A stretch of 64,000 nucleotides of DNA from Prevotella pallens ATCC 700821 (lineage in GTDB: Bacteria; Bacteroidota; Bacteroidia; Bacteroidales; Bacteroidaceae), in NCBI RefSeq assembly GCF_000220255.1, contig NZ_GL982514.1:631520-695519 (forward strand), given 5' to 3'. How positions within the stretch are numbered: the stretch's first letter is position 1; the number at the start of each line of letters is the position of its first letter. Of the stretch, positions 91-54,800 are shown in pieces. Made by a program: the position numbers and the translations under genes. The notes below the pieces were generated by a model. It saw nothing but the letters and a program-made list of their open reading frames with translations, was not told the DNA's origin and did no database searches.

Positions 91-196
91 CACCAGATAC
101 TTGGAACAATCACATTAGTTAAGATTATCGCTGAGTAAAATAAATAGGAGTGCCACTACATTATTGTTAAATCTATTATGTAACCCTCCTTGTATA

Positions 197-262
197 AGTT
201 AGATAAATGCGTAGTATAAATTAGATAAATATGTAGTAGAAGTTAGATAAATACGTAGTATA
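197..262. repeat. Three tandem 22-bp units (AGTTAGATAAAT family)
   Basis: Three back-to-back units of 22 bp occupy 197-218, 219-240 and 241-262. Each has the core GTTAGATAAAT or ATTAGATAAAT followed by a GTAGTA tail; the units differ at only a few positions. The array ends about 30 bases before the ATG of the 64-residue gene, so it would lie in that gene's transcribed leader. Its period equals that of the other arrays in this window, though its sequence is different. Confidence 0.85.
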
Positions 263-293
263 AATCTTTTATAAACCCAAAAATTTAAAAACG

Positions 294-5153: not shown

Positions 5154-5241
5154 TTTCAGATATCTATCGCAATCGTGACAGACGTCTGTCGTGATCGTTT
5201 CAGATATCTGTCGCAATCGAAACAGACGTCATATTTTTTGG
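5154..5241. repeat. 22-bp array with alternating GATATC and GACGTC palindromes
   Basis: Units of exactly 22 bp occupy 5154-5175, 5176-5197, 5198-5219 and, decayed, 5220-5241. Units 1 and 3 carry CAGATATC; units 2 and 4 carry ACAGACGTC. Each intact core is a dyad (CAGATATCTG, ACAGACGTCTGT) followed by a six-base spacer of the type GCAATCG. The array lies in a non-coding kilobase between the leftward T9SS-type gene and nuoA. A related array is at 16384. Confidence 0.85.
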
Positions 5242-13253: not shown

Positions 13254-13257
13254 AGAG

Positions 13258-14769
13258 ATGAGTTGGATATTAACAATATTTGTAATAATCCCCGTACTGA
13301 TGCTTCTCGGCCTTTGGGTCGCTAAGAACGACAATCAGGTACGCGGCGTGATGGTAGCAGGTGCCTCTGCTTTGTTGATTGGTGCAATATGGCTCACCAT
13401 CTATTTTGTGCAACAACGTGCTGCAGGAAATACCGATACTATGCTATTGGCTAATTCGGCTATGTGGTTTAAACCGTTAAACATAGCTTTCGCTGTGGGT
13501 GTTGATGGTATTTCGGTGGTAATGATTTTGCTTTCGGCTATCATTGTTTTCACAGGCACATTTGCCAGTTGGCAACTCGAACCAATGAAGAAGGAATATT
13601 TCCTTTGGTTTGTTTTACTCTCATCTGGTGTGTTCGGTTTCTTTATTTCAACCGATATGTTCACCATGTTTATGTTCTACGAGGTTGCGCTGATACCTAT
13701 GTATCTTCTTATTGGAGTTTGGGGAACAGGTGCAAAAGAGTATTCTGCCATGAAACTCACCCTTATGTTAATGGGTGGTTCAGGCTTACTCATCTTTGGT
13801 TTCCTTGGTATTTACTACTTCAGTGGCGGTTCTACAATGGACGTTATAGAGTTAGCAAAGATGCACGCAATGTCGAAAACAGCGCAAAATATCTTCTTCC
13901 CATTTGTATTCATTGGCTTTGGCATACTCGGAGCGTTGTTCCCATTCCACACATGGTCGCCCGATGGACATGCTTCAGCCCCTACGGCTGTGTCTATGCT
14001 CCACGCTGGTGTATTAATGAAGCTGGGTGGCTATGGCTGTTTGCGTATTGCTATGTACATTATGCCTGATGCGCTTGAGATGTGGGCACCTGTGTTCCTT
14101 ATTCTTACAACCATTTCGGTGGTTTATGGTGCGCTCTCTGCCTGTGTACAAACCGACTTAAAGTACATTAATGCTTACTCTTCGGTTTCTCACTGTGGTA
14201 TGGTGCTCTTCGCATTGGTTATGACAACACAAACTGCCATAACGGGTGCTATTCTTCAAATGCTATCTCACGGTTTAATGACAGCTTTGTTCTTCGCTTG
14301 TATTGGTATGATTTATCACCGTGCTGGTACGCGCGACGTTCGATACCTTGGCGGCTTAATGAAGGTTATACCATTCCTCGCCGTTTCGTATGTAGTGGCT
14401 GGTTTGGCTAACCTTGGTTTGCCTGGTTTCTCAGGTTTCGTTGCTGAAATGACCATCTTTATTGGTTCGTTCGAAAACGCAGGAATGTTCCACCGTGTTT
14501 GCACCATTGTGGCATGTACGTCTATTGTTATTACAGCAGTTTATATTCTTCGCGTGGTGGGAAAAATTCTATTCCAAACCATTCCAAACAAGAAGTTCTA
14601 CGAATTGCACGATGCCAGCTGGGACGAGCGCTTCGCTATTGCGGGCCTCATCTTCTGCGTTGCTGGTCTTGGTATATGCCCATTATTCTTCGAGAATATG
14701 ATTATAGATGCTGTTCACCCTATATTCGAGCACATCATTGAATACGTTCCACAATTAGGTAATTTATAA
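13258..14769 (+). CDS. nuoM: NADH-quinone oxidoreductase subunit M
   Basis: NuoM (ND4) is an antiporter-like subunit of the membrane arm. Its 503 residues contain about 14 membrane segments. MFMFYEVALIPMYLLIGVWG (about 137-156) carries the key glutamate, and LGALFPFHTWSPDGHASAPTAVSMLHAGVLMKLGGYG (about 221-257) holds the proton-path lysines and histidine. It follows nuoL after only four bases and precedes nuoN after 15. Confidence 0.96.
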   Translation: MSWILTIFVIIPVLMLLGLWVAKNDNQVRGVMVAGASALLIGAIWLTIYFVQQRAAGNTDTMLLANSAMWFKPLNIAFAVGVDGISVVMILLSAIIVFTGTFASWQLEPMKKEYFLWFVLLSSGVFGFFISTDMFTMFMFYEVALIPMYLLIGVWGTGAKEYSAMKLTLMLMGGSGLLIFGFLGIYYFSGGSTMDVIELAKMHAMSKTAQNIFFPFVFIGFGILGALFPFHTWSPDGHASAPTAVSMLHAGVLMKLGGYGCLRIAMYIMPDALEMWAPVFLILTTISVVYGALSACVQTDLKYINAYSSVSHCGMVLFALVMTTQTAITGAILQMLSHGLMTALFFACIGMIYHRAGTRDVRYLGGLMKVIPFLAVSYVVAGLANLGLPGFSGFVAEMTIFIGSFENAGMFHRVCTIVACTSIVITAVYILRVVGKILFQTIPNKKFYELHDASWDERFAIAGLIFCVAGLGICPLFFENMIIDAVHPIFEHIIEYVPQLGNL

Positions 14770-16383: not shown

Positions 16384-16449
16384 TTTCAGATATCTGTCAC
16401 GCTCGTCTCAGATATCTGTCACGCTCGCCTTAGATATCTGTCAATAGCG
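16384..16449. repeat. 22-bp array of CAGATATCTG units
   Basis: Three 22-bp units lie at 16384-16405, 16406-16427 and 16428-16449. Units 1 and 2 have the dyad CAGATATCTG followed by TCACGCTCG; unit 3 has decayed to TAGATATCTG with ATAGCG as spacer. It shares its core with the array at 5154, which lies on the other side of the nuo operon. Nothing else is visible in 16300-16582 beyond AT-rich sequence. Confidence 0.85.
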
Positions 16450-21493: not shown

Positions 21494-21713
21494 AAAAACC
21501 CACTTTTTGCGTTGTAAAAACCCCCTTTTTGCACGCTAAAAACCATACTTTTACACGGCAAAAACCATACTTTTGTATGACGATTATGTAACATACAGAT
21601 AAAGAACAAGTTACAAACACTCTGTGAGATATTCACATTCACCCACGAAATGCGTTGCAAACGATTTGCAACAACATAACATTCAAAAAACAAAAACCAT
21701 ACTTTTGCATTGC
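21494..21713. repeat. 22-bp array (AAAAACC core) and linked composite repeat
   Basis: Four 22-bp units lie at 21494-21515, 21516-21537, 21538-21559 and 21560-21581; a fifth stands apart at 21692-21713. Cores are AAAAACCCACTTTTTG, AAAAACCCCCTTTTTG and AAAAACCATACTTTT; spacers of units 2 and 3 (CACGCT, ACACGGC) recur in the arrays at 29600 and 54567. Between array and single unit lies a segment with GTAACATACAGAT, AGATATTCACATTCA, ACGAAATGCGTTGC and TTTGCAACAACATAACATTC that is also repeated at those loci. Apparent short reading frames here are products of the repeat. Confidence 0.85.
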
Positions 21714-29080: not shown

Positions 29081-29316
29081 CGTTGGCGCAACACCAAAAC
29101 CTGTCCCCTTACAGCCCATTACACGCATTTCGCAAGCTGTGGGGGCATATTTTTTGTGTCCATACATACACCAAAACCAACTGATGCCGTGTTAAAAACA
29201 TTATAAATCACGACATTTACAATAGGAATACGCCATTTATTTTGCAGATTTATGTGCATTCGGGACACAATAAATCGCATATACGCCTTACGAAATTTCC
29301 CACAGACACACCGTTA

Positions 29317-29473
29317 GGCGTAGGGGACCGATTCATCGTGCCCGTATTTTTCCTTTGCCAAATCCGTATTTTCCCATTATTAAATACGTGTATTCGTTTC
29401 ATCGCAAACACATTTCTGTTCCCCATTTTGTGGCATTTACGGATATGCGGGCACGATAAATCGGTCCCCTACG
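29317..29473. repeat. long imperfect palindrome, copy 2
   Basis: The left arm at 29317-29344 (GGCGTAGGGGACCGATTC.., ending CGTGCCCG) is complementary with few mismatches to 29448-29473 (CGGGCACGATAAATCGGTCC.., ending CTACG). The interior includes ATACGTGTATTCGTTTCATC and CATTTACGGATATG, which recur in copies near 29.8 and 54.8 kb. No gene is encoded; reading frames across it are artefacts. The segment 29081-29316 before it holds nothing I can name. Confidence 0.8.
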
Positions 29474-29599
29474 GCTGCTAACGGTCCGCTAATAACGCTG
29501 CTGCCGAATTGGAATAATATGGCAAACACTCCGCAAAATATCCACATTCAACCACGAAATACGTGCGAACGATTTGCAACAACATAACATTCAAAAATC

Positions 29600-29687
29600 A
29601 AAAACCATACTTTTGCAATACAAAAACCCCCTTTTTGCACGCCAAAAACCATACTTTTACACGGCAAAAACCATACTTTTGTTTTGC
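29600..29687. repeat. 22-bp array (AAAAACC core), four units
   Basis: Units lie at 29600-29621, 29622-29643, 29644-29665 and 29666-29687. The order of cores (CCATAC, CCCCC, CCATAC, CCATAC) and spacers (GCACGCC, ACACGGC) is the same as in the reverse complement of the array at 54567. It is preceded by the shared linker with CACTCCG, ATATCCACATTCAACCACGA and GATTTGCAACAACATAAC, and followed by GGATATGTAACGTACAGAT. Confidence 0.88.
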
Positions 29688-29777
29688 GGATATGTAACGT
29701 ACAGATAGCGAACGCATTACAAACGTTCCGTGAATGTGCAACGAACACCCCAAAAACAGCCACGAAACACTCCGCCA

Positions 29778-30128
29778 GGCGTAGGGGCCGATTCATCGTG
29801 CCCGTATCCTTACATTGTCAAATCCGTATTTTCACATCATCAAATACACATATTCGTTTCATCGCAAACACATTTCCACATTATCAAATACGCATATTCA
29901 TTTCATTGCACACACATATCCGTTCGTCATTTTGTGGATATATACGGATTTGCGGGCGCGATAAATCGGTCCCCTACAGCTGCTAACGGTCTGCTAATAA
30001 CGTTGCTAACAGATTGAAATAATATGGTGAACACTCCGTGAAATATCTACGTTCAACCACGAAAACACCCAACGAACAATTTGCAACTATACAACTTTCA
30101 AAAAACAAAAACTATACTTTTGTTTTCC
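29778..30128. repeat. palindrome copy 3 with linker and a single 22-bp unit
   Basis: The arms are at 29778-29804 (GGCGTAGGGGCCGATTCATC.., ending GTGCCCG) and 29953-29977 (CGGGCGCGATAAATCGGTCC.., ending CCTAC). Relative to copy 2, the interior carries an extra near-duplicate of about 45 bases (from 29838 and from 29882, both with ATCAAATAC and ATATTC). The linker (GGTCTGCTAATAACG, CACTCCGTGAAATATCTACG, TTTGCAACTATACAACTTTC) leads to one unit, AAAAACTATACTTTTG, at 30107-30128. The remaining 30129-30668 is AT-rich with no gene or clear promoter. Confidence 0.8.
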
Positions 30129-35818: not shown

Positions 35819-35906
35819 AAAAACCCTATTTTTGCATTGCAAAAACCCCCTTTTTGCCGTGCAAAAGTATGGTTTTTGACGTGCAAAAAGGGGGTTTTTG
35901 AAATGC
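35819..35906. repeat. 22-bp array with an orientation switch
   Basis: Four 22-bp units lie at 35819-35840, 35841-35862, 35863-35884 and 35885-35906. The first two read AAAAACCCTATTTTTG and AAAAACCCCCTTTTTG; the last two read as reverse-type cores (AAAAGTATGGTTTTTG, AAAAAGGGGGTTTTTG). The 22-bp register is kept across the switch, and the CCCCC and GGGGG units make a long inverted pair. No gene is visible in 35381-36307 apart from this array and the two flanking promoters. Confidence 0.85.
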
Positions 35907-36224
35907 AATACCCACTAAACTATCTCAAATATGCTAAGAATAGCAAAAACACATACACCACAGCAACCATAAAAACTACAGAAATACAAATCTACATAAC
36001 TACAAAAAGATGAAGAAAAAACTACACCCACCTTAATGTTGTATAAGTTATTATAGATCAAGACTATGCCATACTATCAACAAAAATATAGCGTCCATTT
36101 TGTTATAGAATGTAAAATAGAACCGAATAATAGACGAATCGAACTGTTAAAAGATAAAAAGAAGACAGTGTAAACATACGTTTAGGTAAACAATTGTTAA
36201 TTTTTGAAATTTGTTGGACAATTC

Positions 36225-36307: not shown

Positions 36308-36724
36308 ATGGAAAAAAAGACAGTAGTAACTGGAGTTATTGGCGCTGACGCACATGCGGTTGGCAACAAAATTATTGCTTTTGCGCTCGAGCAGCACAAC
36401 TACAATGTAGTAAACTTAGGTGTTATGGTGGCACAAGAAGAGTATATCGCAGCTGCCATAGAGACCAATGCAGACGCCATTTTAGTATCGTCAATGTATG
36501 GTCATGGCGAAATAGACTGCCAGGGACTACGCCAAAAATGCGACGAAGCAGGCTTAAAAGGTATTCCAATCTTTGTTGGTGGTAACCTCGTAGTGGGAAA
36601 ACAAAACTTTGAAGATGTTGAAAAACGTTTCCTCGCAATGGGTTTCACAAAAGTATATCCTCCTGGAACAGACATCGAAATCTCTATTAAAGACCTCGAT
36701 AAAGTTTTAGGAAAGGAAGATTAA
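36308..36724 (+). CDS. glmS: glutamate mutase (methylaspartate mutase) S subunit
   Basis: The small, cobalamin-binding subunit of glutamate mutase, which with GlmE converts L-glutamate to (2S,3S)-3-methylaspartate by a B12-dependent carbon-skeleton rearrangement. The 138-residue protein has the base-off B12 motif DxHxxG (D14, H16, G19) and the later SSMYGHGE and GGNLVVG segments that hold the nucleotide tail. The length is typical (about 137). It is the first gene of the cluster and is four bases before glmL. Confidence 0.95.
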
Positions 36725-36727
36725 TAC

Positions 36728-38113
36728 ATGAAATATCTTACAGTAGACTTTGGAAGCACATACACTAAGCTAACAGCTATAGACACAGAGATAGGAAACG
36801 TTATTGGAACTGCAGCCGCTTTCACAACCATCGAAACCGATGTTATGGAAGGATTTAATAACGGTTTGCAACAACTCGAAGCACAAATAGGACACTTCGA
36901 ATACGATAGACTACTCTGTTGCAGTAGTGCTGCCGGTGGATTAAAGATGGTTGCACTTGGATTAGTACCCGAACTTACAGCAAAAGCTGCCAAAATGGCG
37001 GCATCAAGCGCAGGTGCAAAGGTTGTAAAAACATATTCGTTCGAGATATCACAGGCAGAACAACAAGAAATTTACGACATTAATCCCGACTTAGTTCTAC
37101 TTTGTGGAGGAACAGACGGTGGCAATAAAGACGTGATTATAGCCAATGCTAAACGGCTATGTGCTATCGACCGCGACTTCTCTATCATAGCTGCAGGAAA
37201 CAAAACAGCCTCTTACGAACTCGACCAAATATTTAAAGCATCTAATAAAAAGAAGTGTGTCATTACAGAAAACGTAATGCCACAATTCAATGTCATAAAT
37301 ATTAACCCAGCAAAACAAAAGATTAAAGAACTGTTTATTAGCCGAATTATTGAAGCAAAAGGACTTACAAGAATTCAAAAAATGAGCGGTTACGACATCA
37401 TACCTACACCGTTAGCTGTACTAACAGGGTGCGAACTGTTTAGCAAAGGGTACGGACGCGACGAAGGAATGGGCGATATGATGGCTGTAGACCTCGGCGG
37501 AGCAACCACAGACATATACTCTATGGCGAAAGGAGAACCCACAATAGCCGAAGTTATAACCAAAGGTCTACCAGAACCATATAGCAAACGCACCGTAGAA
37601 GGCGACCTCGGAATGCGCTATAGCCTAACCGCAATGGCGGAAGAAATAAATATGGAAGTGTTTGCAGACGAACTTGGAATAGACCAAAACAAGATAGAAA
37701 ACTGGATAAAACGATGCGCTGCCGAACCAGCAACACTTCCACAAAACGACGAAGAAGCACGCATTGAACAAGGATTGGCACGCAATGCCGTGAAAGTAGC
37801 CGTAGAAAGACACTGCGGATACTTCGAACCAGCATACACACCAATGGGACAAGTGTTCACCTTAACAGGAAAAGACCTCTCGGATGTGCCATTTATAGTA
37901 GGTATTGGAGGCTCCATTAAAAACAATTCAGACCCTAAGAGTATACTAAGCGGTGCAGAAAAGAAAGCATCGCGCGACCCAATGTTTGCCAAACCAAAGG
38001 CTCCAAAGTATATGTTAGATAAGAAATACATCTTCGCATCTATGGGATTGCTAAGCAATTTCGAGCCACATCTGGCACTATCCATTATGAAAAAGGAAAT
38101 TACGGAAATATAA
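36728..38113 (+). CDS. glmL: glutamate mutase reactivating ATPase, GlmL/MutL family
   Basis: A 461-residue ASKHA-fold ATPase. The phosphate-1 loop is visible at VDFGSTYTKLTAID (about 5-18), a second acidic phosphate loop at AVDLGGATTDIYS (about 254-266), and the adenosine loop at VGIGGSIKNN. Family members repair or exchange damaged B12 in glutamate mutase, and genes of this family lie between the S and E subunit genes in clostridia too. It fits tightly: three bases after glmS, 27 before glmE. Confidence 0.93.
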   Translation: MKYLTVDFGSTYTKLTAIDTEIGNVIGTAAAFTTIETDVMEGFNNGLQQLEAQIGHFEYDRLLCCSSAAGGLKMVALGLVPELTAKAAKMAASSAGAKVVKTYSFEISQAEQQEIYDINPDLVLLCGGTDGGNKDVIIANAKRLCAIDRDFSIIAAGNKTASYELDQIFKASNKKKCVITENVMPQFNVININPAKQKIKELFISRIIEAKGLTRIQKMSGYDIIPTPLAVLTGCELFSKGYGRDEGMGDMMAVDLGGATTDIYSMAKGEPTIAEVITKGLPEPYSKRTVEGDLGMRYSLTAMAEEINMEVFADELGIDQNKIENWIKRCAAEPATLPQNDEEARIEQGLARNAVKVAVERHCGYFEPAYTPMGQVFTLTGKDLSDVPFIVGIGGSIKNNSDPKSILSGAEKKASRDPMFAKPKAPKYMLDKKYIFASMGLLSNFEPHLALSIMKKEITEI

Positions 38114-38140
38114 ATAGTCAATAGTACTAATATTACTATT

Positions 38141-39595
38141 ATGGAATTAAAGAATAAAAAACTAACCGACGACGAGTTTTTCAAAGAAAGAGCCGACGTC
38201 TTAACACATTGGGAGACTGGAAAAGGCGTAGACTTCCAAGAGGCTGTAGATTACCAAAAGAGTATTGCACCAGAGAAACGCTTTGCATATAAACTACAAA
38301 AAGCAGTAGAAAACGGCGACACTCTTATCCAACCCCGCGCCGGAGTAGCACTCTATGAAGAACATATAAAGCTACTACGATTCCTTGAAGACGAAGGAGA
38401 AGCAGACCTGTTACCATCTACTGTAGATAGCTACACACGTCTGAACAGATACAAAGAATGCGAAGTTGGTATTCAAAAAAGCTTCGAAACCAACCGTTCA
38501 ATGCTGAATGGATTCCCCATTGTGAACTATGGCGTGGACATTTGCCGTAAGGTTACATCGGCAGTAAAGAGCCCTGTACAGGTTAGACACGGGACTCCTG
38601 ATGCACGTTTACTTACAGAAATCTCTATCGCAGGTGGTTTTACATCATACGAAGGTGGAGGTATCTCATACAATATTCCATATTCTAAAGCACACCCAGT
38701 AGACCAAGTAATTCACCATTGGCAGTATGCCGACCGCTTAGTTGGACTATACGAAGAAGCAGGAGTATCTATAAACAGAGAGCCCTTCGGACCTCTTACT
38801 GGTACACTTATACCTCCTTGCATATCAAATACCGTCGCTGTAATAGAGGCAGTGCTAGCTGCTACACAAGGAGTACGCGACCTTACTGTTGGATATGGCC
38901 AGTGTGGTAACCTCATTCAGGACGTTGCTGCAATACGTTCGCTTGATATTATGACACGCAAATACCTAGATAAGTTTGGCTATAAGGACGCTCGTGTAAC
39001 CACAGTGTTCCACCAATGGATGGGCGGATTCCCACAAGACGAAGCTAAAGCCTTTGGAGTTATATCATGGGGAGCCGCTGCTGGTGCATTGGCAAAGGCA
39101 ACAAAGGTTATCGTTAAAACACCACACGAGGCTATGGGTATACCTACAAAGGAGGCAAATGCAGCCGGATTACGTGCCACAAAGCAGGTTATCAATATGC
39201 TAAAAGACCAAAACTTCCGCGAAATTCCTGCCGTTATAGACGAGAGCGAAATAATTATGCGCGAAATGGAATGTATTCTTAATAAGGTGGAAGAGCTTGG
39301 AAAGGGCGATTGGGCTGTAGGTACTTGCGCTGCAATAGAGGCTGGAGTGATTGACATTCCATTTGCACCAAGCAAGTATAACGCTGGTAAAGTGTTGCCT
39401 GCACGCGATAATCAAGGTGCTATCCGACTATTGAATATGGGTAATATGCCACTCAGCGACGACTTAGTTATATTCCATCGCCAGAAGTTAGAGGAACGAG
39501 CAAAAGCCGAAAATCGTCCTGTTAGCTTCCAAATGGTTATCGACGACGTTTACGCAATTGGTAAAGGACACCTTGTTGGACGCCCTAAAGACTAA
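38141..39595 (+). CDS. glmE: glutamate mutase (methylaspartate mutase) E subunit
   Basis: The 484-residue TIM-barrel subunit that binds glutamate and, with GlmS, the cobalamin cofactor. Family features include [16 protein letters not shown] (about 147-162), the [19 protein letters not shown] segment (about 166-184) and [17 protein letters not shown], which contribute the arginines that bind substrate carboxylates. The length equals that of clostridial GlmE (about 483). It lies between glmL and mal, matching the route from glutamate to methylaspartate to mesaconate. Confidence 0.95.
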
Positions 39596-39814: not shown

Positions 39815-41056
39815 ATGAAAGTTAAGAAAGTTGTATGTGCCCCAGGTAAAACGGGCTTCTTTTTCGATGACCAAAAGGCCATCAAAGCCGGTGCAAAGAA
39901 CGACGGTGCCTTCTATATTGGCACTCCATTAACACCTGGTTTCACACAGGTAAGACAAGCTGGCGAGTCAATTAGCGTTATGTTCATACTTGAAAACGGC
40001 GCTATTGCATACGGCGACTGTGCTGCTGTGCAGTATTCAGGTGCCGGTGGCCGCGACCCATTGTTCCTTGCGAAAGACTTTATTCCAGTTATTGAAAAAG
40101 AAATAGCACCACTTTACGAAGGCAAAGAAATAACATCGTTCCGCGAAATGGCAGACCTCGTAGACAAAGCTATTAGTCCGTCTACAGGAAAAATATATCA
40201 TACCGCTATAAGATATGGTGTAACACAAGCTTGTCTCGATGCTGTTGCAAAGAGCCAAAGCAAATTAATGGCACAAGTAGTAGCCAATGAGTATGGCACA
40301 GAGGTATCAAAGAAGATTATTCCTATCTTCTCTCAATCAGGAGACGACCGCTATTTGAATGCCGACAAGATGATAATGAAGTGTGCTGACGTACTTCCAC
40401 ATGCTCTTTTCAACCACGTTGAAACAAAGGTTGGACTAAAAGGCGAAAAGATTAAAGAGTATGTTGGCTGGCTACGCAACCGTGTTCTCGAACTACGTCC
40501 ATGCGAATGCTACAACCCTATCTTCCATATTGATGTTTATGGAACACTCGGCATCGTCTTCAATAACGATTTTGAGGCTATCGCTAAATACATTGGCGAG
40601 GTGGCAGAAATAGCAAAACCTTTCCACCTACGTGTAGAAGGACCAGTTGATATGGGCGAACGCGAAGCACAAATAGATGCTTTAGCTGCTATACGTGCCG
40701 CAATGGACCGCGATGGAATAGACGCTGAGATTGTTGCAGACGAATGGTGTAACACCTTAGAAGATATAAAAGCGTTCACTGAAAAGAAGGCTGGACACAT
40801 GGCACAGATAAAGACTCCAGACCTCGGAGGTATCAACAACACCATCGAAGCCGTACTTTACTGTAAAGAACACGGCATGGGTGCTTATCTTGGAGGTACT
40901 TGCAACGAAACAAACCGCTCTGCAGAGGTTTGCGCTAACATTGCTATGGCTACCAAACCTGTACAGTATCTTGCAAAACCTGGTATGGGAGTAGACGAAG
41001 GTTATATGATTGTGTTCAACGAAATGAGCCGCATCTTAGCACTCACTGCCGAATAG
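39815..41056 (+). CDS. mal: 3-methylaspartate ammonia-lyase
   Basis: The enzyme removes ammonia from 3-methylaspartate to give mesaconate, the second step of the methylaspartate pathway. The 413-residue length is the same as that of Clostridium tetanomorphum enzyme family members. It belongs to the enolase superfamily: acidic metal ligands are seen around HIDVYGTLG (about 238-246), EGPVDMG (about 273-279) and ADEWCN (about 307-312), and the catalytic Lys in QIKTPDLGG (about 329-337). It follows glmE after 219 bases. Confidence 0.95.
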   Translation: MKVKKVVCAPGKTGFFFDDQKAIKAGAKNDGAFYIGTPLTPGFTQVRQAGESISVMFILENGAIAYGDCAAVQYSGAGGRDPLFLAKDFIPVIEKEIAPLYEGKEITSFREMADLVDKAISPSTGKIYHTAIRYGVTQACLDAVAKSQSKLMAQVVANEYGTEVSKKIIPIFSQSGDDRYLNADKMIMKCADVLPHALFNHVETKVGLKGEKIKEYVGWLRNRVLELRPCECYNPIFHIDVYGTLGIVFNNDFEAIAKYIGEVAEIAKPFHLRVEGPVDMGEREAQIDALAAIRAAMDRDGIDAEIVADEWCNTLEDIKAFTEKKAGHMAQIKTPDLGGINNTIEAVLYCKEHGMGAYLGGTCNETNRSAEVCANIAMATKPVQYLAKPGMGVDEGYMIVFNEMSRILALTAE

Positions 41057-41272
41057 AAACATTATTATATATACGCAAATTCAATATCATAAGATAGAAA
41101 AAAGAATGTGGCGTCTGTTCTATTCAGATATGACGCCATATTCATCAAAGTATGACAACCTGCCCGTTAAGAACCAACGCAAACAGATTCTTGGATTAAT
41201 GCTATTGCAACCATAAATAAAAACAATTGGTTTCAGAAAATAGAACAAGTTTGTTTATATCGCAAAAAGGTA

Positions 41273-41505
41273 GTTTTTAGAATACAAAAACATAGTTTTT
41301 AGAATACAAAAGTATGGTTTTTGGAATGCAAAAACATAGTTTTTAGAATACAAAAGTATGGTTTTTAAAATGCAAAAACATAGTTTTTAGAATGCAAAAG
41401 TATGGTTTTTGGAATGCAAAAGTATAGTTCTAAGAATGTAGATCTATGGTTCTAAGAATGTAGATCTATGGTTCTACAAAAGTAGATCCATAGTTCTAAA
41501 AATGC
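41273..41505. repeat. largest 22-bp tandem array, ten full units
   Basis: Ten full units of exactly 22 bp run from 41273 to 41492 with an incomplete eleventh to 41505. Early units alternate cores ending in AAAAACATA and AAAAGTATG (GTTTTTAGAATAC..); units 8-10 have diverged to GTTCTAAGAATGTAGATC... The array fills part of a 657-base spacer between mal and the AtuA-like gene. It contains no spacers of variable sequence, so it is not a CRISPR. It is related in core and period to the AAAAACCATACTTTTG arrays elsewhere in the window, but with the highest copy number. Confidence 0.92.
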
Positions 41506-41713: not shown

Positions 41714-43090
41714 ATGGAAGAAATCAGAATACTCTCCACTACAGCTATTTTGGGCTATGGTTTCCCTATGGAATCGTTCGTAGAGGGAATGAAACGTAAG
41801 CCCCACGTAATCGCAGTAGACGCTGGTTCATCAGATCCAGGCCCTTATTATCTTGGCGCAGGCAAGTCGTTCACAGACCGCAACTCTGTAAAACGCGACT
41901 TAGAAATTATGATTCCTGCTGGAATAGAAGCCAAAGTACCCGTAATTGTAGGTACTGCTGGTGGTAGCGGTGCACGTCCTCACGTAGAATTTGTGCTCGA
42001 TATCATTCGCGAAATAGCCAAAGAGAAAGGCCTTTCTTTTAAGATGGCAGTAATAGAATCGGAGTTTGAGAAAGACTTTATTAAGGAAGAACTTCGCAAA
42101 GGAAAGGTTAATCCACTTGCTCCAGCTAAGCCTATCGGCGAAAAAGACGTAGACGAAGCAGTTCATATCGTAGCTCAAATTGGCGAAGAACCATACATCA
42201 AGGCTTTGGAAGAAGGTGCCGACGTAATTATTGCTGGCCGTTCTTACGACCCATCAGTATTCGCTGCCCTTCCAATAAAAGAGGGATTTCCAAAAGGTTT
42301 AGCCATTCACTTGGGCAAAATATTAGAGTGTGCGGCTATCTGTGCACTACCAGGAAGTGGTAGCGACTGTATGTTTGGCTATCTACATCACGACGATTTC
42401 GTGCTCGAACCATTATCTTCAGCTCGCAAATGTACCACCCTTTCTATCGCAGGACACACACTTTACGAGAAAACAAACCCTTATATTCTGCCTGGTCCAG
42501 GTGGTGCTATCAACCTACACGAGTGCAAATTCGAACAAGTAGACGACAATAAGGTACGTGTTTCTGGGTCAAAGTTTGTACCAACCGATAAGTATTACGT
42601 TAAACTCGAGGGTGTTCGCCGAGTAGGTTTCCGCACAATGTCGCCTGCAGCAGTTAAGGATCCTATCATGATTTCTAAGATAGACGAAATTACAGAGGCA
42701 GTTCGCGCTCGCGTAGAAGACAACTTTAGGAAGTACGGTATTACCGATTTCTTCCTCGATTTCAAGATTTATGGCAAGAAAGGCGTAATGGCAATGTTCA
42801 AAGGAATAGAGGAATCGCACTCCGATGAGCTTCTTATCATTATCGAAGCCGTAGCCGATAGCCAAGAAACAGCTAACACTATCTGTAGCTTTGCACGTAG
42901 CACGATGCTCCACTTTGGCTACGAAGGTCGCTATTCTACGTCAGGCAACCTTGCATTCCCCTTCTCTCCATCAGATTGTAAGATGGGCGAGGTTTACGAA
43001 TTCAATATCTATCACCTCTTAGAAGTAGACGATCCAACAAGTCTCTTCCCTATTACATACGTCAATTTCGACAGGGGAGAATGCAAGTAA
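41714..43090 (+). CDS. AtuA-like protein (DUF1446 family) in the glutamate fermentation cluster
   Basis: I place the start at the ATG at 41714, which follows AAGGAAAACAACAG and begins the conserved MEEIRILSTTAILGYG; the frame from 41648 adds 22 unlikely residues. The 458-residue protein has an early nucleotide- or anion-binding-like region (VIAVDAGSSDPGPYYLG, about 31-47; VIVGTAGGSGARPHVE, about 78-93) typical of the acyclic terpene utilisation AtuA/DUF1446 family. The paired DUF4387 gene follows 24 bases later, and the two families are frequent neighbours. Its place between mal and the mesaconase genes suggests a step or chaperone role with a C5 acid or its CoA ester; no reaction is proven. 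Confidence 0.8.
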   Translation: MEEIRILSTTAILGYGFPMESFVEGMKRKPHVIAVDAGSSDPGPYYLGAGKSFTDRNSVKRDLEIMIPAGIEAKVPVIVGTAGGSGARPHVEFVLDIIREIAKEKGLSFKMAVIESEFEKDFIKEELRKGKVNPLAPAKPIGEKDVDEAVHIVAQIGEEPYIKALEEGADVIIAGRSYDPSVFAALPIKEGFPKGLAIHLGKILECAAICALPGSGSDCMFGYLHHDDFVLEPLSSARKCTTLSIAGHTLYEKTNPYILPGPGGAINLHECKFEQVDDNKVRVSGSKFVPTDKYYVKLEGVRRVGFRTMSPAAVKDPIMISKIDEITEAVRARVEDNFRKYGITDFFLDFKIYGKKGVMAMFKGIEESHSDELLIIIEAVADSQETANTICSFARSTMLHFGYEGRYSTSGNLAFPFSPSDCKMGEVYEFNIYHLLEVDDPTSLFPITYVNFDRGECK

Positions 43091-43646: not shown

Positions 43647-44591
43647 ATGATAAATCCACTTCAGCAATATCTTATCTCAACACAATACTTTGCTCCACGT
43701 GGCAAAGAGCGTCTTATATTCCTCGGCGACCACATTTCTCAACGCCACCTTCTGTATACCGACCGTCTCATTGGTATTGTAGGCGATGCTGGTTCTGGCA
43801 AATCTTCGCTCATAAAAGGTATGTTTCCTGGTTTGGAACTCACCAACGACGACGACATAATTAACCCTCGCAAGATTCTTTCTATGCGAGATTCCATTGC
43901 ATTAGGCGAAATTAAAGAGGCTTCATCGTTCCATTTGGACATTCGTTTCCTTACTGGCTTTATGCAAATGTGGGAGATTGCCGAATTTGTTAAGACATTG
44001 TTGGAACACAAAAAGCGAGTTATTGTTGAACATTTCAACCTTTTACGCAAGGCTTTAGGGCGCAATGCCGATTTGATTGTGGGCATTGGCGAAGAAATTA
44101 TTGTGGCTCGTCCCTCAATGTTTGGACCACTTCCAGAAAGCATTTACGAGATTGTGCACGAGTCGTTGAAGTATCGTAAGATGGCACATACAGCAGAAGA
44201 GATTACCCGTTACATACTTGAAGAGGACTATAACATATCTTCCGACCATTATTATTTCTCTGATATACGTAACGGTTTCGTGCTTAAATTCTACAAACAC
44301 GAGGACTTTAGCATAGAGGAACTCGAACAAAAGGTGCGCAAAATTATAGAAATGCACCTCCCAGTAGCATATTACGACGAAGAACACATTACCGTTGGCA
44401 AACGCATAGTAGAGTGTGGAGGTCCGCGTTTGCAGGTAAATAATACCAAAGATATACAGAATTTTGCTTTCGTTAAGGAGTTTATGTACGACCCCGATAG
44501 CAAAACGCATTGCCTAATAGGCATTGTTGATACGAATTACGAGAACATTGAGAACAGAAATACACAGTATTTCCTTACAAGACAAGTATAA
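43647..44591 (+). CDS. P-loop protein associated with glutamate fermentation
   Basis: A 314-residue protein. A Walker A motif is plain at GDAGSGKSS (about 46-54), followed by an acidic site LTNDDDIINPR (about 62-72). The second half has alpha/beta segments, including the histidine-containing EEHITVGKRIVECGGPRLQV (about 251-270). I recall similar proteins from clostridia annotated as carrying an alanine-tRNA synthetase second additional domain, but nothing here shows aminoacylation. The next gene, mesaconase alpha, starts only two bases after its stop, so the two are surely co-expressed. An NTP-dependent activating or repair role for the pathway is inference only. Confidence 0.75.
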   Translation: MINPLQQYLISTQYFAPRGKERLIFLGDHISQRHLLYTDRLIGIVGDAGSGKSSLIKGMFPGLELTNDDDIINPRKILSMRDSIALGEIKEASSFHLDIRFLTGFMQMWEIAEFVKTLLEHKKRVIVEHFNLLRKALGRNADLIVGIGEEIIVARPSMFGPLPESIYEIVHESLKYRKMAHTAEEITRYILEEDYNISSDHYYFSDIRNGFVLKFYKHEDFSIEELEQKVRKIIEMHLPVAYYDEEHITVGKRIVECGGPRLQVNNTKDIQNFAFVKEFMYDPDSKTHCLIGIVDTNYENIENRNTQYFLTRQV

Positions 44592-44593
44592 GA

Positions 44594-45436
44594 ATGAGAG
44601 AAATAGAAGCATCTAAGATTACAGAGCTGGTAGAAAAGCTTTGTATAGAAGCATGTTACGTGCTTGCAGACGATATATATAACAAGCTCGCAATATGCCA
44701 AAAACAAGAGAAATCGCCCTTAGCAAGCCAGATAATAGGTACGATTGTGAAAAACGCCGATATAGCTAAAACCGAGCGTGTACCTATGTGTCAGGACACA
44801 GGAATGACCGTTGTGTTTGTTACAATGGGGCAAGATTGCCACATTACAGGTGGTTTTATAGAAGACGCCATAAACCAAGGGGTACGACAAGGCTACTCTA
44901 AAGGTTATCTTCGCAAGTCGGTTGTGAAGGATCCAATAGACCGTGTGAACACAACAGACAACACTCCTGCCATTATTCACTACAATATTGTGCCGGGAAA
45001 CGAGTTCCATATTACCGTAGCACCTAAGGGTTTTGGTAGCGAAAACAAGAGTGGACTGAAGATGCTGACGCCAAGTGCAGGCATAAAAGGCATTAAACAG
45101 TTTGTTATAGACACTATTTTCCATGCCGGTGGCAACCCTTGTCCACCTATTATTGTAGGCATTGGCATTGGTGGAACTATGGAACGAGCTGCCTATTTAA
45201 GCAAAAAAGCATTGCTCCGACCGGTTGGCAGTGTTAGCGAAATGCCCCATGTGGCTAAATTAGAGAAGGAATTGTTAGACGAAATTAACAAACTTGGCAT
45301 CGGTCCATGTGGTTTTGGTGGCACAACTACCGCCCTACAAGTAAGCATTCTCACCAATGCCACGCACATTGCTGGCTTGCCTGTATCGGTAAACATTGGT
45401 TGCCATGCTACACGCCATGCAGAAGGCTCTCTCTAA
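44594..45436 (+). CDS. class I fumarate hydratase-type alpha subunit (probable mesaconase)
   Basis: A 280-residue subunit of a two-part iron-sulfur hydratase. Three conserved cysteine contexts suited to a [4Fe-4S] cluster are visible: VPMCQDTG (about 57-64), GGNPCPPIIVGIGIGG (about 178-193) and GPCGFGGTTTALQV (about 237-250). The class includes fumarase, L-tartrate dehydratase and mesaconase (2-methylfumarate hydratase). Its place after glmSLE and mal makes hydration of mesaconate to citramalate the most likely activity; fumarase activity may coexist. The beta subunit follows after 90 bases. Confidence 0.85.
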   Translation: MREIEASKITELVEKLCIEACYVLADDIYNKLAICQKQEKSPLASQIIGTIVKNADIAKTERVPMCQDTGMTVVFVTMGQDCHITGGFIEDAINQGVRQGYSKGYLRKSVVKDPIDRVNTTDNTPAIIHYNIVPGNEFHITVAPKGFGSENKSGLKMLTPSAGIKGIKQFVIDTIFHAGGNPCPPIIVGIGIGGTMERAAYLSKKALLRPVGSVSEMPHVAKLEKELLDEINKLGIGPCGFGGTTTALQVSILTNATHIAGLPVSVNIGCHATRHAEGSL

Positions 45437-45526
45437 ACACTACAAACGCTCTCTGAAAAACATTCGTACAGAGTTAAATAGAGGTGGCGTTTCTTACACA
45501 ATACCCTAAATACAAGAAAACAAAAT

Positions 45527-46081
45527 ATGGAAGAAAAACGAATAATATCGGCTCCATTCACCGATGAAACCATAAAATCGCTCCATGCTGGAGATATGGT
45601 TTATATATCAGGAACTATATATACGGCACGCGATGCAGCGCATAAACGGTTGTGCGAAATGCTTGATGCGGGCGAACCTATGCCTTTTAACTTTGAAGGA
45701 CAGGCTGTTTACTATGCTGGTCCGTGCCCTGCTAAGCCTGGACAACCCATTGGTTCGGTAGGACCAACCACTGGAGGACGTATGGATGCCTACTCTCCAC
45801 GACTCATTCAACAGGGGCTTCGTGTTATGATTGGTAAGGGCTCGCGGTCTGAAGAGGTTATCGATGCACTAAAAAAATATACCGGAGTCTACTTTGCTGC
45901 CATTGGTGGCGCAGCCGCACTTATGGCAAAGGCTGTTAAAGAGGCAGAAGTTATTGCCTTCGATGAGCTTGGAACAGAGGCTATACGCCGTCTTCGGGTA
46001 GAAGAATTGCCCGTTATTGTTGCCATAGACCACGAAGGTAACGATATGTATAAGCTGGGTGTAGAGAAGTATAAACAGTAG
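45527..46081 (+). CDS. class I fumarate hydratase-type beta subunit (probable mesaconase)
   Basis: The 184-residue partner of the alpha subunit. Features of the family: ISGTIYTARDAAHKRL (about 28-43) with the Arg/Asp/His active-site group, YYAGPCPAKPGQPIGSVGPTTGGRMDAY (about 66-93) and FAAIGGAAALMAKAVK (about 123-138). Together the two chains match the split class I form used by many anaerobes. A terminator lies 115 bases beyond the stop codon. No citramalate lyase gene is in the window, so the last step to acetate and pyruvate is encoded elsewhere or done differently. Confidence 0.85.
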   Translation: MEEKRIISAPFTDETIKSLHAGDMVYISGTIYTARDAAHKRLCEMLDAGEPMPFNFEGQAVYYAGPCPAKPGQPIGSVGPTTGGRMDAYSPRLIQQGLRVMIGKGSRSEEVIDALKKYTGVYFAAIGGAAALMAKAVKEAEVIAFDELGTEAIRRLRVEELPVIVAIDHEGNDMYKLGVEKYKQ

Positions 46082-46196
46082 AAACTACTACAATATATAT
46101 ACTACAGAACAACCTTACGTTTGTTTTGGCAGCAGCGTTGTTATGCTCACAATGCGCTAAAATATAGAAAAACTTATAAATGCCATATATTTTCTG

Positions 46197-46240
46197 AACT
46201 CCTACTTTGTCTTTTTATAAGACAGGTAGGAGTTTTTTTT
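46197..46240 (+). terminator. rho-independent terminator of the mesaconase transcript
   Basis: AACTCCTAC (46197-46205) pairs with GTAGGAGTT (46226-46234), with an inner TGTC/GACA pairing, and is followed by a run of Ts to 46240. The stretch 46241-46465 is otherwise empty. Confidence 0.88.
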
Positions 46241-46465
46241 ATAGCAAAAAACAAGCTAACAAAGCCGAAACTACAGTTTTACAGTGTGCATAAACCCACA
46301 AAAACAACCGCTGCACCTTGTTAATGCTATATTCTCCTCCCCCTCTTTTGTTCGTCGTTTGCTGTTTATTATAGCTCGTTATACTTTGTTTATACGCAAC
46401 ATAACATACTCTGCAATAAAACAAGGTTTATATTTGTTCTAACAGTTTTTTAGGTTTAAACTATA

Positions 46466-46501
46466 AAAGGTGTGGAAAGCAAATGCTTCAGCCACACCTT
46501 T
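46466..46501 (-). terminator. terminator of the leftward outer-membrane protein gene
   Basis: AAAGGTGTGG (46466-46475) and CCACACCTTT (46492-46501) form a perfect 10-bp stem with an inner AAGC/GCTT pairing, 52 bases beyond the stop of the leftward gene at 46553. The plus strand has four As before the stem, giving Ts on the minus strand. Confidence 0.75.
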
Positions 46502-46552
46502 CTTATCATAATAGAGGCAAACCTACGGTTTAACAACCTCTATAAAAGAACT

Positions 46553-47041
46553 TTATAATCTATATGTCAGTCCCACACTTGGCACCAATTGGTTGTAATT
46601 ATCTATAATTTGATATTTCAATTCTGCATTCACATTAATCCTATTGATAAGCTGATACTGTACACCACACCCAAGATTAACCGCTAATCTGTCTTCTGAT
46701 GCCGACTTCTTCTTGCCGTCTAACAGTACAAAATGCACATTCCACTTTGTATAACCTACCCCCACAACAGGATAAACCTGTAGTTTTGGAGCAACATCAA
46801 ACAGGTAATGGAGGTTTGCATTTATATCCCACATAGATACATCGTCCTTCTTTAAAAAGTGATCTATAGATGCTTCGCCACGCAAACGGTCGGTTAAATA
46901 GTACTGACCTTTTACTCCTAAGCCTATATTTTTTACTTTTGTACCATACGAAAGGTTTACACCTATTGCCTTATCTCCCTTTTGTGCTGAAGCAGAAATA
47001 CTTACAATGGCAGCACATACTAATACTAATAGTTTTTTCAT
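46553..47041 (-). CDS. small outer-membrane beta-barrel protein
   Basis: A 162-residue protein with a signal peptide (about 1-19, SISASAQ) and about eight alternating strands ending in VPSVGLTYRL, the aromatic/Tyr-rich end typical of barrels recognised by the BAM machinery. It resembles the OmpA/OmpW-like porin-family barrel without a peptidoglycan-binding domain. Its own promoter lies nearly 290 bases upstream, giving an unusually long leader. Confidence 0.75.
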   Translation of the reverse strand: MKKLLVLVCAAIVSISASAQKGDKAIGVNLSYGTKVKNIGLGVKGQYYLTDRLRGEASIDHFLKKDDVSMWDINANLHYLFDVAPKLQVYPVVGVGYTKWNVHFVLLDGKKKSASEDRLAVNLGCGVQYQLINRINVNAELKYQIIDNYNQLVPSVGLTYRL

Positions 47042-47329
47042 TTTACGTTTTGTTTATATTATTTTTGTGTGATTGAGCTTTTTAATTGATTGTATTACAG
47101 AAGGTAAGTGGTTATTTTAACCGTGTTCGTACGCTTATTAGTATGCCATAAAATTCTCTTTTTGTTGCCATAAACGGCATTTAGGCAAACATAAAAATTT
47201 GTTTTAGCATTACACCTTCCACAAAACAACAGCATTGCAATGTGGCGCATAAGCAGCCAGAACTACACCTCCATTTCTATATATTGTTTGTTATACTCTC
47301 TCTACATACGAATATTTAGTTTCATTTCG

Positions 47330-47360
47330 CAAAGATATGCAAATTAATTTAAAGTACAAA
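47330..47360 (-). promoter_or_regulatory. promoter with long leader before the outer-membrane barrel gene
   Basis: On the minus strand TATCTTTG (47330-47337, complement) and TTTG (47357-47360, complement) are 19 bases apart. The nearest rightward gene is read away from it, so it serves the gene at 46553-47041. The leader is about 285 bases; nothing in it looks coding. Confidence 0.6.
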
Positions 47361-47674
47361 AACTTTTCATAACTTTCTTTTCACAATGTGTTTATTATTT
47401 ATTAATACGTGGTTTTTGCCTAATTGGTTATTAAAGTTGGTTTATTTTGTTCCGCCATAAACACAGTTTATAAACCTCATAATAAAGATATTACCATATA
47501 CAACAAAGGCGAAAGGCGTGCAAAATGCCAACAAGCATACAACAAACTACCGAGTGCGGTGGCATTTACACCATATAATAATGTACGAAACATCTACCAG
47601 TTGTAACCGAAGCATAACGCAGTTCATAACCATCTAATAGACAACGTCTTACGAAAGTCCATTTTTCTGTATTA

Positions 47675-47762
47675 CAAAAGTATGGTTTTTGGCGTTCAAA
47701 AACCATGCTTTTGCAGCACAAAAACCATACTTTTACATTGCAAAAACCCCCTTTTTGAAATT
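47675..47762. repeat. 22-bp array with one inverted unit
   Basis: Units at 47675-47696 (CAAAAGTATGGTTTTTG), 47697-47718 (CAAAAACCATGCTTTTG), 47719-47740 (CAAAAACCATACTTTT) and 47741-47762 (CAAAAACCCCCTTTTTG) keep the 22-bp register although the first is in the opposite orientation. A decayed piece of the palindrome element (TCAATTCATTGTGCCCG) follows near 47850. The rest of 47361-48001 holds nothing else I can support. Confidence 0.85.
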
Positions 47763-54479: not shown

Positions 54480-54800
54480 GTTCGCAACCCATTTTGTGAG
54501 CGAATGTAGATATTTCACGGAATGTTCGCAACGTATTCATTCTGTGTATGTTACATATTCACAGAACAAAAGTATGGTTTTTGCCGTGTAAAAGTATGGT
54601 TTTTGGCGTGCAAAAAGGGGGTTTTTGCGTTGCAAAAGTATGGTTTTTGTTTTTTGAATGTTACGTTGTTGCAAATCGGTAGCAACGCATTTCGTAGTTG
54701 AATGTGAATATCTCACAGCATATTCGCCACATTATTCCAATTTGTTAGCAGCATTATTAGCAGCACACAAGCAGCCGTAGGGGCAGATTTATCGTGCCCG
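54480..54800. repeat. composite repeat in reverse orientation: 22-bp array, linker and half palindrome
   Basis: The array has four units at 54567-54588, 54589-54610, 54611-54632 and 54633-54654 (CAAAAGTATGGTTTTTG and CAAAAAGGGGGTTTTTG). Beyond it lies the reverse complement of the linker found at 29.5 and 21.6 kb (GAATGTTACGTTGTTGCAAA, GAATGTGAATATCTCAC, TTAGCAGCATTATTAGCAGC), then one palindrome arm (GCCGTAGGGGCAGATTTATC.., ending GTGCCCG, 54774-54800). The other arm is missing; instead the terminator of the C69 gene follows. Short reading frames here are repeat artefacts. Confidence 0.85.

Follow-up and report, generated by a model that had tools for sequence, protein, structure and literature searches.

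Arrays of 22-bp units as the purest, in-phase segments of a long-range AA/TT lattice in part of the Prevotella pallens genome

One family of 22-bp tandem arrays, which includes the array described here, supplies the purest, in-phase segments of a long-range DNA lattice that occupies part of one contig (C2) of the Prevotella pallens ATCC 700821 genome. AA and TT in this lattice recur at intervals of 10.97 bp on a single helical face, in genes and spacers alike; G+C dinucleotides lie on the opposite face, and the pattern stays coherent over 1-2 kb. It is an evenly balanced proposition, in our estimate, that arrays and lattice together form the DNA half of a nucleoid-architecture system with a putative protein partner. 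The 3.13-Mb genome is assembled in 40 contigs, including C1 (2.31 Mb) and C2 (0.77 Mb); the window is the whole stretch of 64,000 nucleotides analysed (C2:631520-695519), and coordinates without a contig name refer to it. Gene calls throughout come from a crude open reading frame (ORF) caller and are not an annotation.

Read in register, the reported array comprises eleven units of exactly 22 bp (41263-41504, 242 bp); an earlier note on this DNA had the period right and counted ten units. Tandem Repeats Finder assigns period 22 to 41262-41438 and 41423-41504, and period 44 to 41273-41437 with 90% matches. Two versions of the unit alternate in units 2-7, which indicates that the unit by which the array grew is 44 bp, and units 8-11 have diverged. 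The setting is the glutamate fermentation cluster that the earlier note had recognised: Pfam identifies a B12-binding subunit, MutE and methylaspartate ammonia-lyase of the glutamate mutase cluster, with the last of these on one side of the array and an AtuA-like gene on the other. The same note had proposed that units of two helical turns place their cores on one face of the DNA, and this phasing is not only correct but reaches farther than proposed, as the surrounding genes continue the AA/TT wave of the array in phase. The adjacent genes stand at -22 and +37 degrees, the phase drifts to -97 and +104 degrees in genes farther away, and each of the eight genes tested exceeds its synonymous shuffles, of which at most 3 in 300 reach the observed power. 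The array and these genes are as follows.

36308..39595, + strand: B12-binding subunit, the 36728-38113 ORF and MutE; periodic, phase drifted -53 to -97 degrees relative to the array; power reached by 3, 0 and 0 of 300 shuffles
39815..41056, + strand: methylaspartate ammonia-lyase (Pfam MAAL_N/MAAL_C); AA/TT wave at -22 degrees relative to the array, power 4.4, reached by 1 of 300 synonymous shuffles
41263..41504, unstranded: array under study, built of eleven 22-bp units; at 10.97 bp its AA/TT power is 20.7 times noise
41714..43090, + strand: AtuA-like gene downstream of the array (Pfam AtuA); wave at +37 degrees, power 11.3, reached by 0 of 300 shuffles
43647..46081, + strand: three ORFs farther downstream, each periodic, with phases of +104, +69 and +28 degrees; 0 of 300 shuffles each

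Measured from gene start to gene start, the gap that bears the array exceeds its P. aurantiaca counterpart by 592 bp (53.97 turns); against P. falsenii the excess, taken from alignment ends, is 505 bp. In both species the corresponding gap is short, and no such array was found in it. An interpretation of the array as an RNA family was dropped, as Rfam gave no match at the gathering score in the 64-kb window.

With up to three mismatches, a 16-mer core of the array has 29 matches in the window against 2.1 expected, a number reached by none of 100 shuffles. Related units listed earlier at 21494, 29600, 35819, 47675 and 54567 are indeed present. Their supposedly invariable 22-bp register is not: cores in opposite orientations are spaced by 43 bp (35819/35862) and 23 bp (47675/47698), and solitary cores occur at 21692 and 30107. 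Besides the reported one, we identified the following arrays in the window, all of them unstranded.

192..265: period-22 array of unrelated sequence (Tandem Repeats Finder)
5163..5230: diverged array of a second family, family B (Tandem Repeats Finder)
16386..16443: family B array with AGATATCT palindromes; as a family, no phase lock to genes
21494..21574: array of the same family as the reported one (CAAAAACC...TTTTTGCA units; Tandem Repeats Finder and core search)
29599..29681: same-family array within a longer run of differing 22-bp units, one register throughout
29828..29921: run of period 22/44, other sequence, near REP-like GTAGGGG..CGTGCCCG modules
35819..35908: same-family array, units in both orientations
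47675..47748: same-family array, units in both orientations
54567..54649: same-family array (Tandem Repeats Finder and core search)

The enrichment of period 22 over its neighbours that the earlier note anticipated is pronounced. Exact 10-mer pairs at lags of 21, 22 and 23 bp number 31, 698 and 9 in 400 kb of C2, 2, 332 and 12 in 400 kb of C1, and 1, 72 and 0 in the window. A scan of 1.264 Mb, 68% of it in ORFs of at least 200 aa, yielded 153 period-22 arrays with a median of 3.5 units and a maximum of 11; by the crude ORF caller, 150 of them lie outside such ORFs and three mostly inside. The period is common to several unrelated sequence families. Family A, that of the reported array, is composed of CAAAAA..TTTTTG units with TTTTGCAnTGCAAAA joints; its core is found, allowing one mismatch, at 93 places in the genome (83 on C2 and 10 on C1). 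Flanks are shared by part of the family A arrays, and the reported array has other flanks. Around family A arrays, differing 22-bp units keep one register for hundreds of bases, and pairs of 12-mer repeats on C2 hold multiples of 22, or one base less, up to about 660 bp. Family B consists of AGATATCT palindromes, mostly on C1 and at 300-650 kb of C2, and 28 of its arrays of at least three units (in 864 kb) have a conserved leader and tail of more than 100 bp each. Tested for dyad symmetry against base shuffles, 20 of 120 period-22 consensus units score p<=0.05; palindromes therefore mark some families, not all, and general dyad symmetry of all period-22 units was dropped. Among 112 classified arrays, 34 are in >>, 35 in <<, 26 in >< and 17 in <> gaps, as predicted by intergenic length (shares of 0.27, 0.32, 0.24 and 0.18, respectively). 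On this lack of orientation preference, a role of the arrays as terminators or promoters was dropped.

Long mosaics of differing 22-bp units in a single register were observed at 1-70 kb of C2 and at 29300-30000 of the window. Interspersed in them are REP-like GTAGGGG..GATTYATCGTGCCCG modules, with 36 hits in 41 pieces, of which some form inverted pairs. With their GTAG start and inverted pairs among 22-bp units, the GTAGGGG..CGTGCCCG modules resemble REP/REPIN elements. The GTAG start is linked with RAYT, and RAYT-driven REPINs are ruled out here by the absence of a Y1_Tnp gene (PF01797, no matches in the genome).

AA/TT autocorrelation at 10.97 bp is a property of the genes themselves in about 300 kb of C2 (80-280 kb and the window). 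Measured over 94 genes, its amplitude of 0.01238 drops to 0.00056 once each gene's synonymous codons are shuffled (none of 20 shuffles exceeds 0.00108); 121 other genes, on C1, have an amplitude of 0.00093. Since synonymous shuffling nearly abolishes the amplitude, the lattice is carried by codon choice and not by protein sequence, which rules out a protein-level cause such as amphipathic helices. AA and TT have phases of +13 and -13 degrees, and GC, CC and GG, at 178, -163 and 167 degrees, are half a turn off. The coherence of the AA/TT lattice lasts more than 1 kb in the rich region. In lag bands of 9-110, 110-330, 330-660, 660-1100, 1100-1650, 1650-2200 and 2200-3200 bp, with arrays masked, it amounts to 22.8, 23.5, 18.9, 13.4, 7.4, 2.8 and 0.15 (x0.001), with noise from 1.8 to 0.13 (x0.001); in C1 minus its two richer stretches, the successive values are 2.4, 3.1, 1.8, 1.0 and 0.6 (x0.001), then nothing.

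The strength of the lattice varies with the density of family A. Over 61 pieces, coding amplitude correlates with family A density at rho 0.72, with G+C at 0.56 and with family B density at -0.25; the correlation with family A is 0.45 (p 0.006) in the 36 pieces of C1 and 0.29 (p 0.22) in 20 later pieces alone, half of which were picked near family A sites. Almost no lattice is present at 20-40, 340-540 and 700-765 kb of C2. The few genes tested in these stretches, the single largest ORFs, include those for a Z1-domain protein, type I restriction, a TonB receptor and unknowns; such a set, with restriction- or defence-like and unknown proteins, would fit recently acquired DNA.

The link between arrays and genes is one of phase, measured as that of AA/TT in array-masked coding flanks relative to the nearest family A array. 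The resultant R is 0.50 (n=30), 0.64 (54) and 0.63 (67) at 0.1-0.4, 0.4-0.7 and 0.7-1.0 kb, and 0.56 (70), 0.41 (70) and 0.36 (71) at 1.0-1.3, 1.3-1.6 and 1.6-2.0 kb; in the farther bands, out to 3-4 kb, it drops to 0.22 (77), 0.14 (73) and 0.08 (79), the lock having faded by 2.5 kb. Out to 3 kb, the angle between arrays and genes is at most 13 degrees from zero. Of 12 trial periods, 10.97 bp gives the best lock when all bands are considered together, and it is the only one whose mean cosine exceeds 0.3 in each of the first six. Taking 44 arrays and 65 flanks at distances of 0.4-1 kb, we obtained a mean cosine of 0.714; the largest value in 2000 random rotations was 0.311. Genes to the left and right of an array agree with each other more weakly (n=21, mean cosine 0.35). 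Family B arrays show no consistent lock to genes, with 2 of 14 tests at p<0.05. For 13 between-species differences in gap length, several of which represent one gap in two species, R is 0.49 at 10.97 bp and comes to 0.48 at 14.5 bp as well, there at a different angle, so that the preservation of phase by indels is only suggestive.

A weaker component spans two turns. In 102 coding segments (C2 80-320 kb and the window), the signal at 21.94 bp is +0.00255 ± 0.00027 for AA with AA and TT with TT, and -0.00201 ± 0.00027 for AA with TT, that is, AA and TT occupy alternate turns in pooled genes as they do in the reported array. The AA-TT minimum falls at 21.9 bp, as does the same-type maximum, which is nearly equalled at 29.9 bp, the edge of the scan. 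The AA-minus-TT signal in genes is locked to arrays at 21.94 bp with R of 0.41, 0.46, 0.46, 0.41, 0.33, 0.25 and 0.37 in bands to 2.5 kb. With arrays masked, the component does not rise above the background spectrum in window genes alone or in the genes of P. aurantiaca or P. falsenii; it stands out in genes of two patches of the relative G026 (z 4.1 and -5.0) that had been selected beforehand for their 11-bp signal.

Of the named relatives found, P. aurantiaca is the closest, with 96% in one protein. Close relatives do carry period-22 arrays, as the earlier note would have it, though of other sequence and not at this place. Pooled pairs at lags 21/22/23, taking in 53 of 80 loci, number 9/63/0 in 8 loci of the Prevotella group, 19/112/1 in 11 of the Porphyromonas group, 6/31/2 in 12 of Bacteroides, Dysgonomonas and kin, and 6/1/5 in 22 loci from outside Bacteroidota. 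Among stretches of other genomes, the 18 from the same genus gave 158/156/17, with a single stretch contributing 106 of the lag-21 pairs, the 17 from the same class gave 6/7/12 and the 15 from the same phylum 21/2/0. Long-range periodicity is found in P. aurantiaca (10.98 bp), P. falsenii (10.98 bp) and G026 (11.02-11.03 bp), and more weakly in loci L048, L049, L133, L139, L146 and L047. In P. aurantiaca, six of six comparisons of arrays with flanks at 30-300 bp agree within 32 degrees, and G026, analysed at 11.03 bp, has mean array-flank cosines of 0.28, 0.37 and 0.35 across three bands of distance (n 23-24 per band). In 116 loci of relatives, the 11-bp amplitude hardly follows the array signal (rho 0.13, p 0.18). 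Intergenic-looking 22-bp arrays of other sequence were also seen in loci without an 11-bp lattice, such as L117 of Porphyromonas canoris (13096-13339) and the Porphyromonas and Bacteroides loci L082, L085, L088, L076 and L081. Given family B arrays without a consistent lock and Porphyromonas arrays without a gene lattice, the 22-bp period is not always explained by the lattice; one rule for every family is unsupported, and these arrays need another explanation for their 22 bp.

It is unlikely that the arrays at large are useless minisatellites or MITE-like repeats that spread, grow by slippage and merely look ordered. Such an origin would suit the existence of several families, the leader and tail around the 28 family B arrays, the absence of the insert from P. 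aurantiaca and P. falsenii, and the species-specific sequences (a genus sample of 150 genomes has the family A core in 2, its own included, and a phylum sample of 118 has the family B pattern in 1), but it predicts neither the phase of genes up to 2 kb away nor a lattice at synonymous sites. For family B itself this reading may well hold. The model for such repeats, BrickBuilt of Porphyromonas gingivalis, is described in the available text of PMC4596501 as a minisatellite/MITE present in 19 copies, with a unit of 23 nt and terminal repeats resembling those of IS5. It shares with the present arrays an intergenic location and about two helical turns per unit, and family B has a similar leader and tail; unlike it, these arrays have a unit of 22 bp, not 23 (no lag-23 pairs in the window), and are in phase with genes, a feature that we did not find described for BrickBuilt in that text. 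Its terminal repeat (GAGACCTTTGCA..TGCAAAGGTCTC, up to two mismatches, searched in the window only) is not above chance, at 4 matches against 4.57 expected, and the parallel to BrickBuilt suggested in the earlier note is a superficial one.

The direction of change was polarised in about 8 kb of aligned genes at one locus with up to five outgroup loci. Relative to the lattice that P. aurantiaca also has, the window lineage has gained AA/TT in phase (+0.193 ± 0.055, n=195) and lost it out of phase (-0.217 ± 0.111, n=33). The P. aurantiaca lineage shows the reverse (gains -0.071 ± 0.058, n=170; losses +0.262 ± 0.122, n=30). The stem value of +0.287 was set aside as partly circular, its sites helping to set the reference phase. 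At this one locus, the values fit a pattern that may still be under construction on the window lineage and relaxing in P. aurantiaca. Phase-dependent gains and losses, and long coherence, would also arise without selection on genes if DNA that is protein-coated or plectonemic mutated unevenly around the helix, leaving lattice and arrays as functionless by-products. We consider such a mutational footprint rather improbable: it still requires a regular coat and, taken alone, leaves the arrays outside genes unexplained.

Even more doubtful is that intrinsic curvature or supercoil placement alone accounts for the pattern, with sequence setting the sites of plectonemic loops and no dedicated protein. 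The opposition of AA/TT to GC/CC/GG, the suitability of 10.97 bp for negatively supercoiled DNA and the lack of orientation preference speak for it, but 1-2 kb of coherence and the 21.94-bp alternation exceed the needs of local curvature. That the arrays are sites of a cooperative regulator or transcription terminators is hardly credible, despite near-palindromic units at two-turn spacing, with 153 arrays in 1.26 Mb and gap types that follow intergenic length.

The reading of arrays and lattice as part of nucleoid architecture would work as follows. A period of 10.97 bp per turn corresponds to 10.5-bp DNA underwound by about 4%, the usual reading of long periods. The DNA would thus be underwound in the cell, at 10.97 and not 10.5 bp per turn, and would offer one face over kilobases, which may be bent, wrapped or coated by a putative DNA-binding protein, perhaps with one dimer per two turns. 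The arrays would grow by slippage in steps of 22 or 44 bp that keep the register, adding strong lattice segments so that the spacer becomes longer and the next gene is still in phase; the alternating 44-bp unit fits such slippage. A fuller version, which we advance tentatively as a possibility well short of even, is a bacterial chromatin: part of the genome would form a continuous two-turn (21.94-bp) dyad lattice, a putative protein filament would assemble on it from one face and keep its register fixed for 1-2 kb, arrays of 22-bp units would nucleate the filament or maintain its register, and synonymous codons would be chosen to fit. Candidate binders, by family membership, may be sought among HU/IHF-like proteins (PF00216), which have 11 matches in the genome, two of them adjacent at C2:622203-622768, one of this pair at the start of or inside a 475-aa open frame.

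The role of the ~11-bp periodicity of bacterial genomes is a long-standing open question. As far as it is described in the available parts of PMC4132750, PMC1242344 and PMC3431218, this structural code resembles the lattice in having AA/TT near 11 bp, mostly in genes and at synonymous sites; in cyanobacteria the signal is on synonymous positions, with about 10-20% left after synonymous replacement (PMC4132750). PMC1242344, a search for the origin of the 11-bp bias, presents that bias in the text available as fuzzy and gone within about 100 bp, unlike the coherence of more than 1 kb at 10.97 bp seen here; the present signal also differs in being strongest in one part of a contig and locked to tandem arrays. 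The PATCs of C. elegans, according to the available part of PMC3819648, are periodic An/Tn clusters of about 10 bp in animal germline chromatin. Like the lattice, they place A/T runs in helical phase, are associated with particular genes and keep rotational order over several hundred bp; they differ in that the period here is 10.97 bp and lies in bacterial coding sequence. The resemblance is one of kind and implies no common origin. Among the literature titles and abstracts examined, we found neither 22-bp arrays in Prevotella nor kilobase-long phase order in a bacterial genome.

A lattice that is strong in one region and weak elsewhere in the same genome provides matched internal controls, and the arrays are short, cheap DNA baits. 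Synonymous sites here may bear a load of chromosome structure, which would affect tests of codon usage and selection as well as the design of Prevotella genes. At 95% identity to P. aurantiaca, a 2.2-kb block of the window (45508-47723, compared with L045) stands out from blocks of 82-86%; it ends at an array and looks like a recent exchange or strong constraint.
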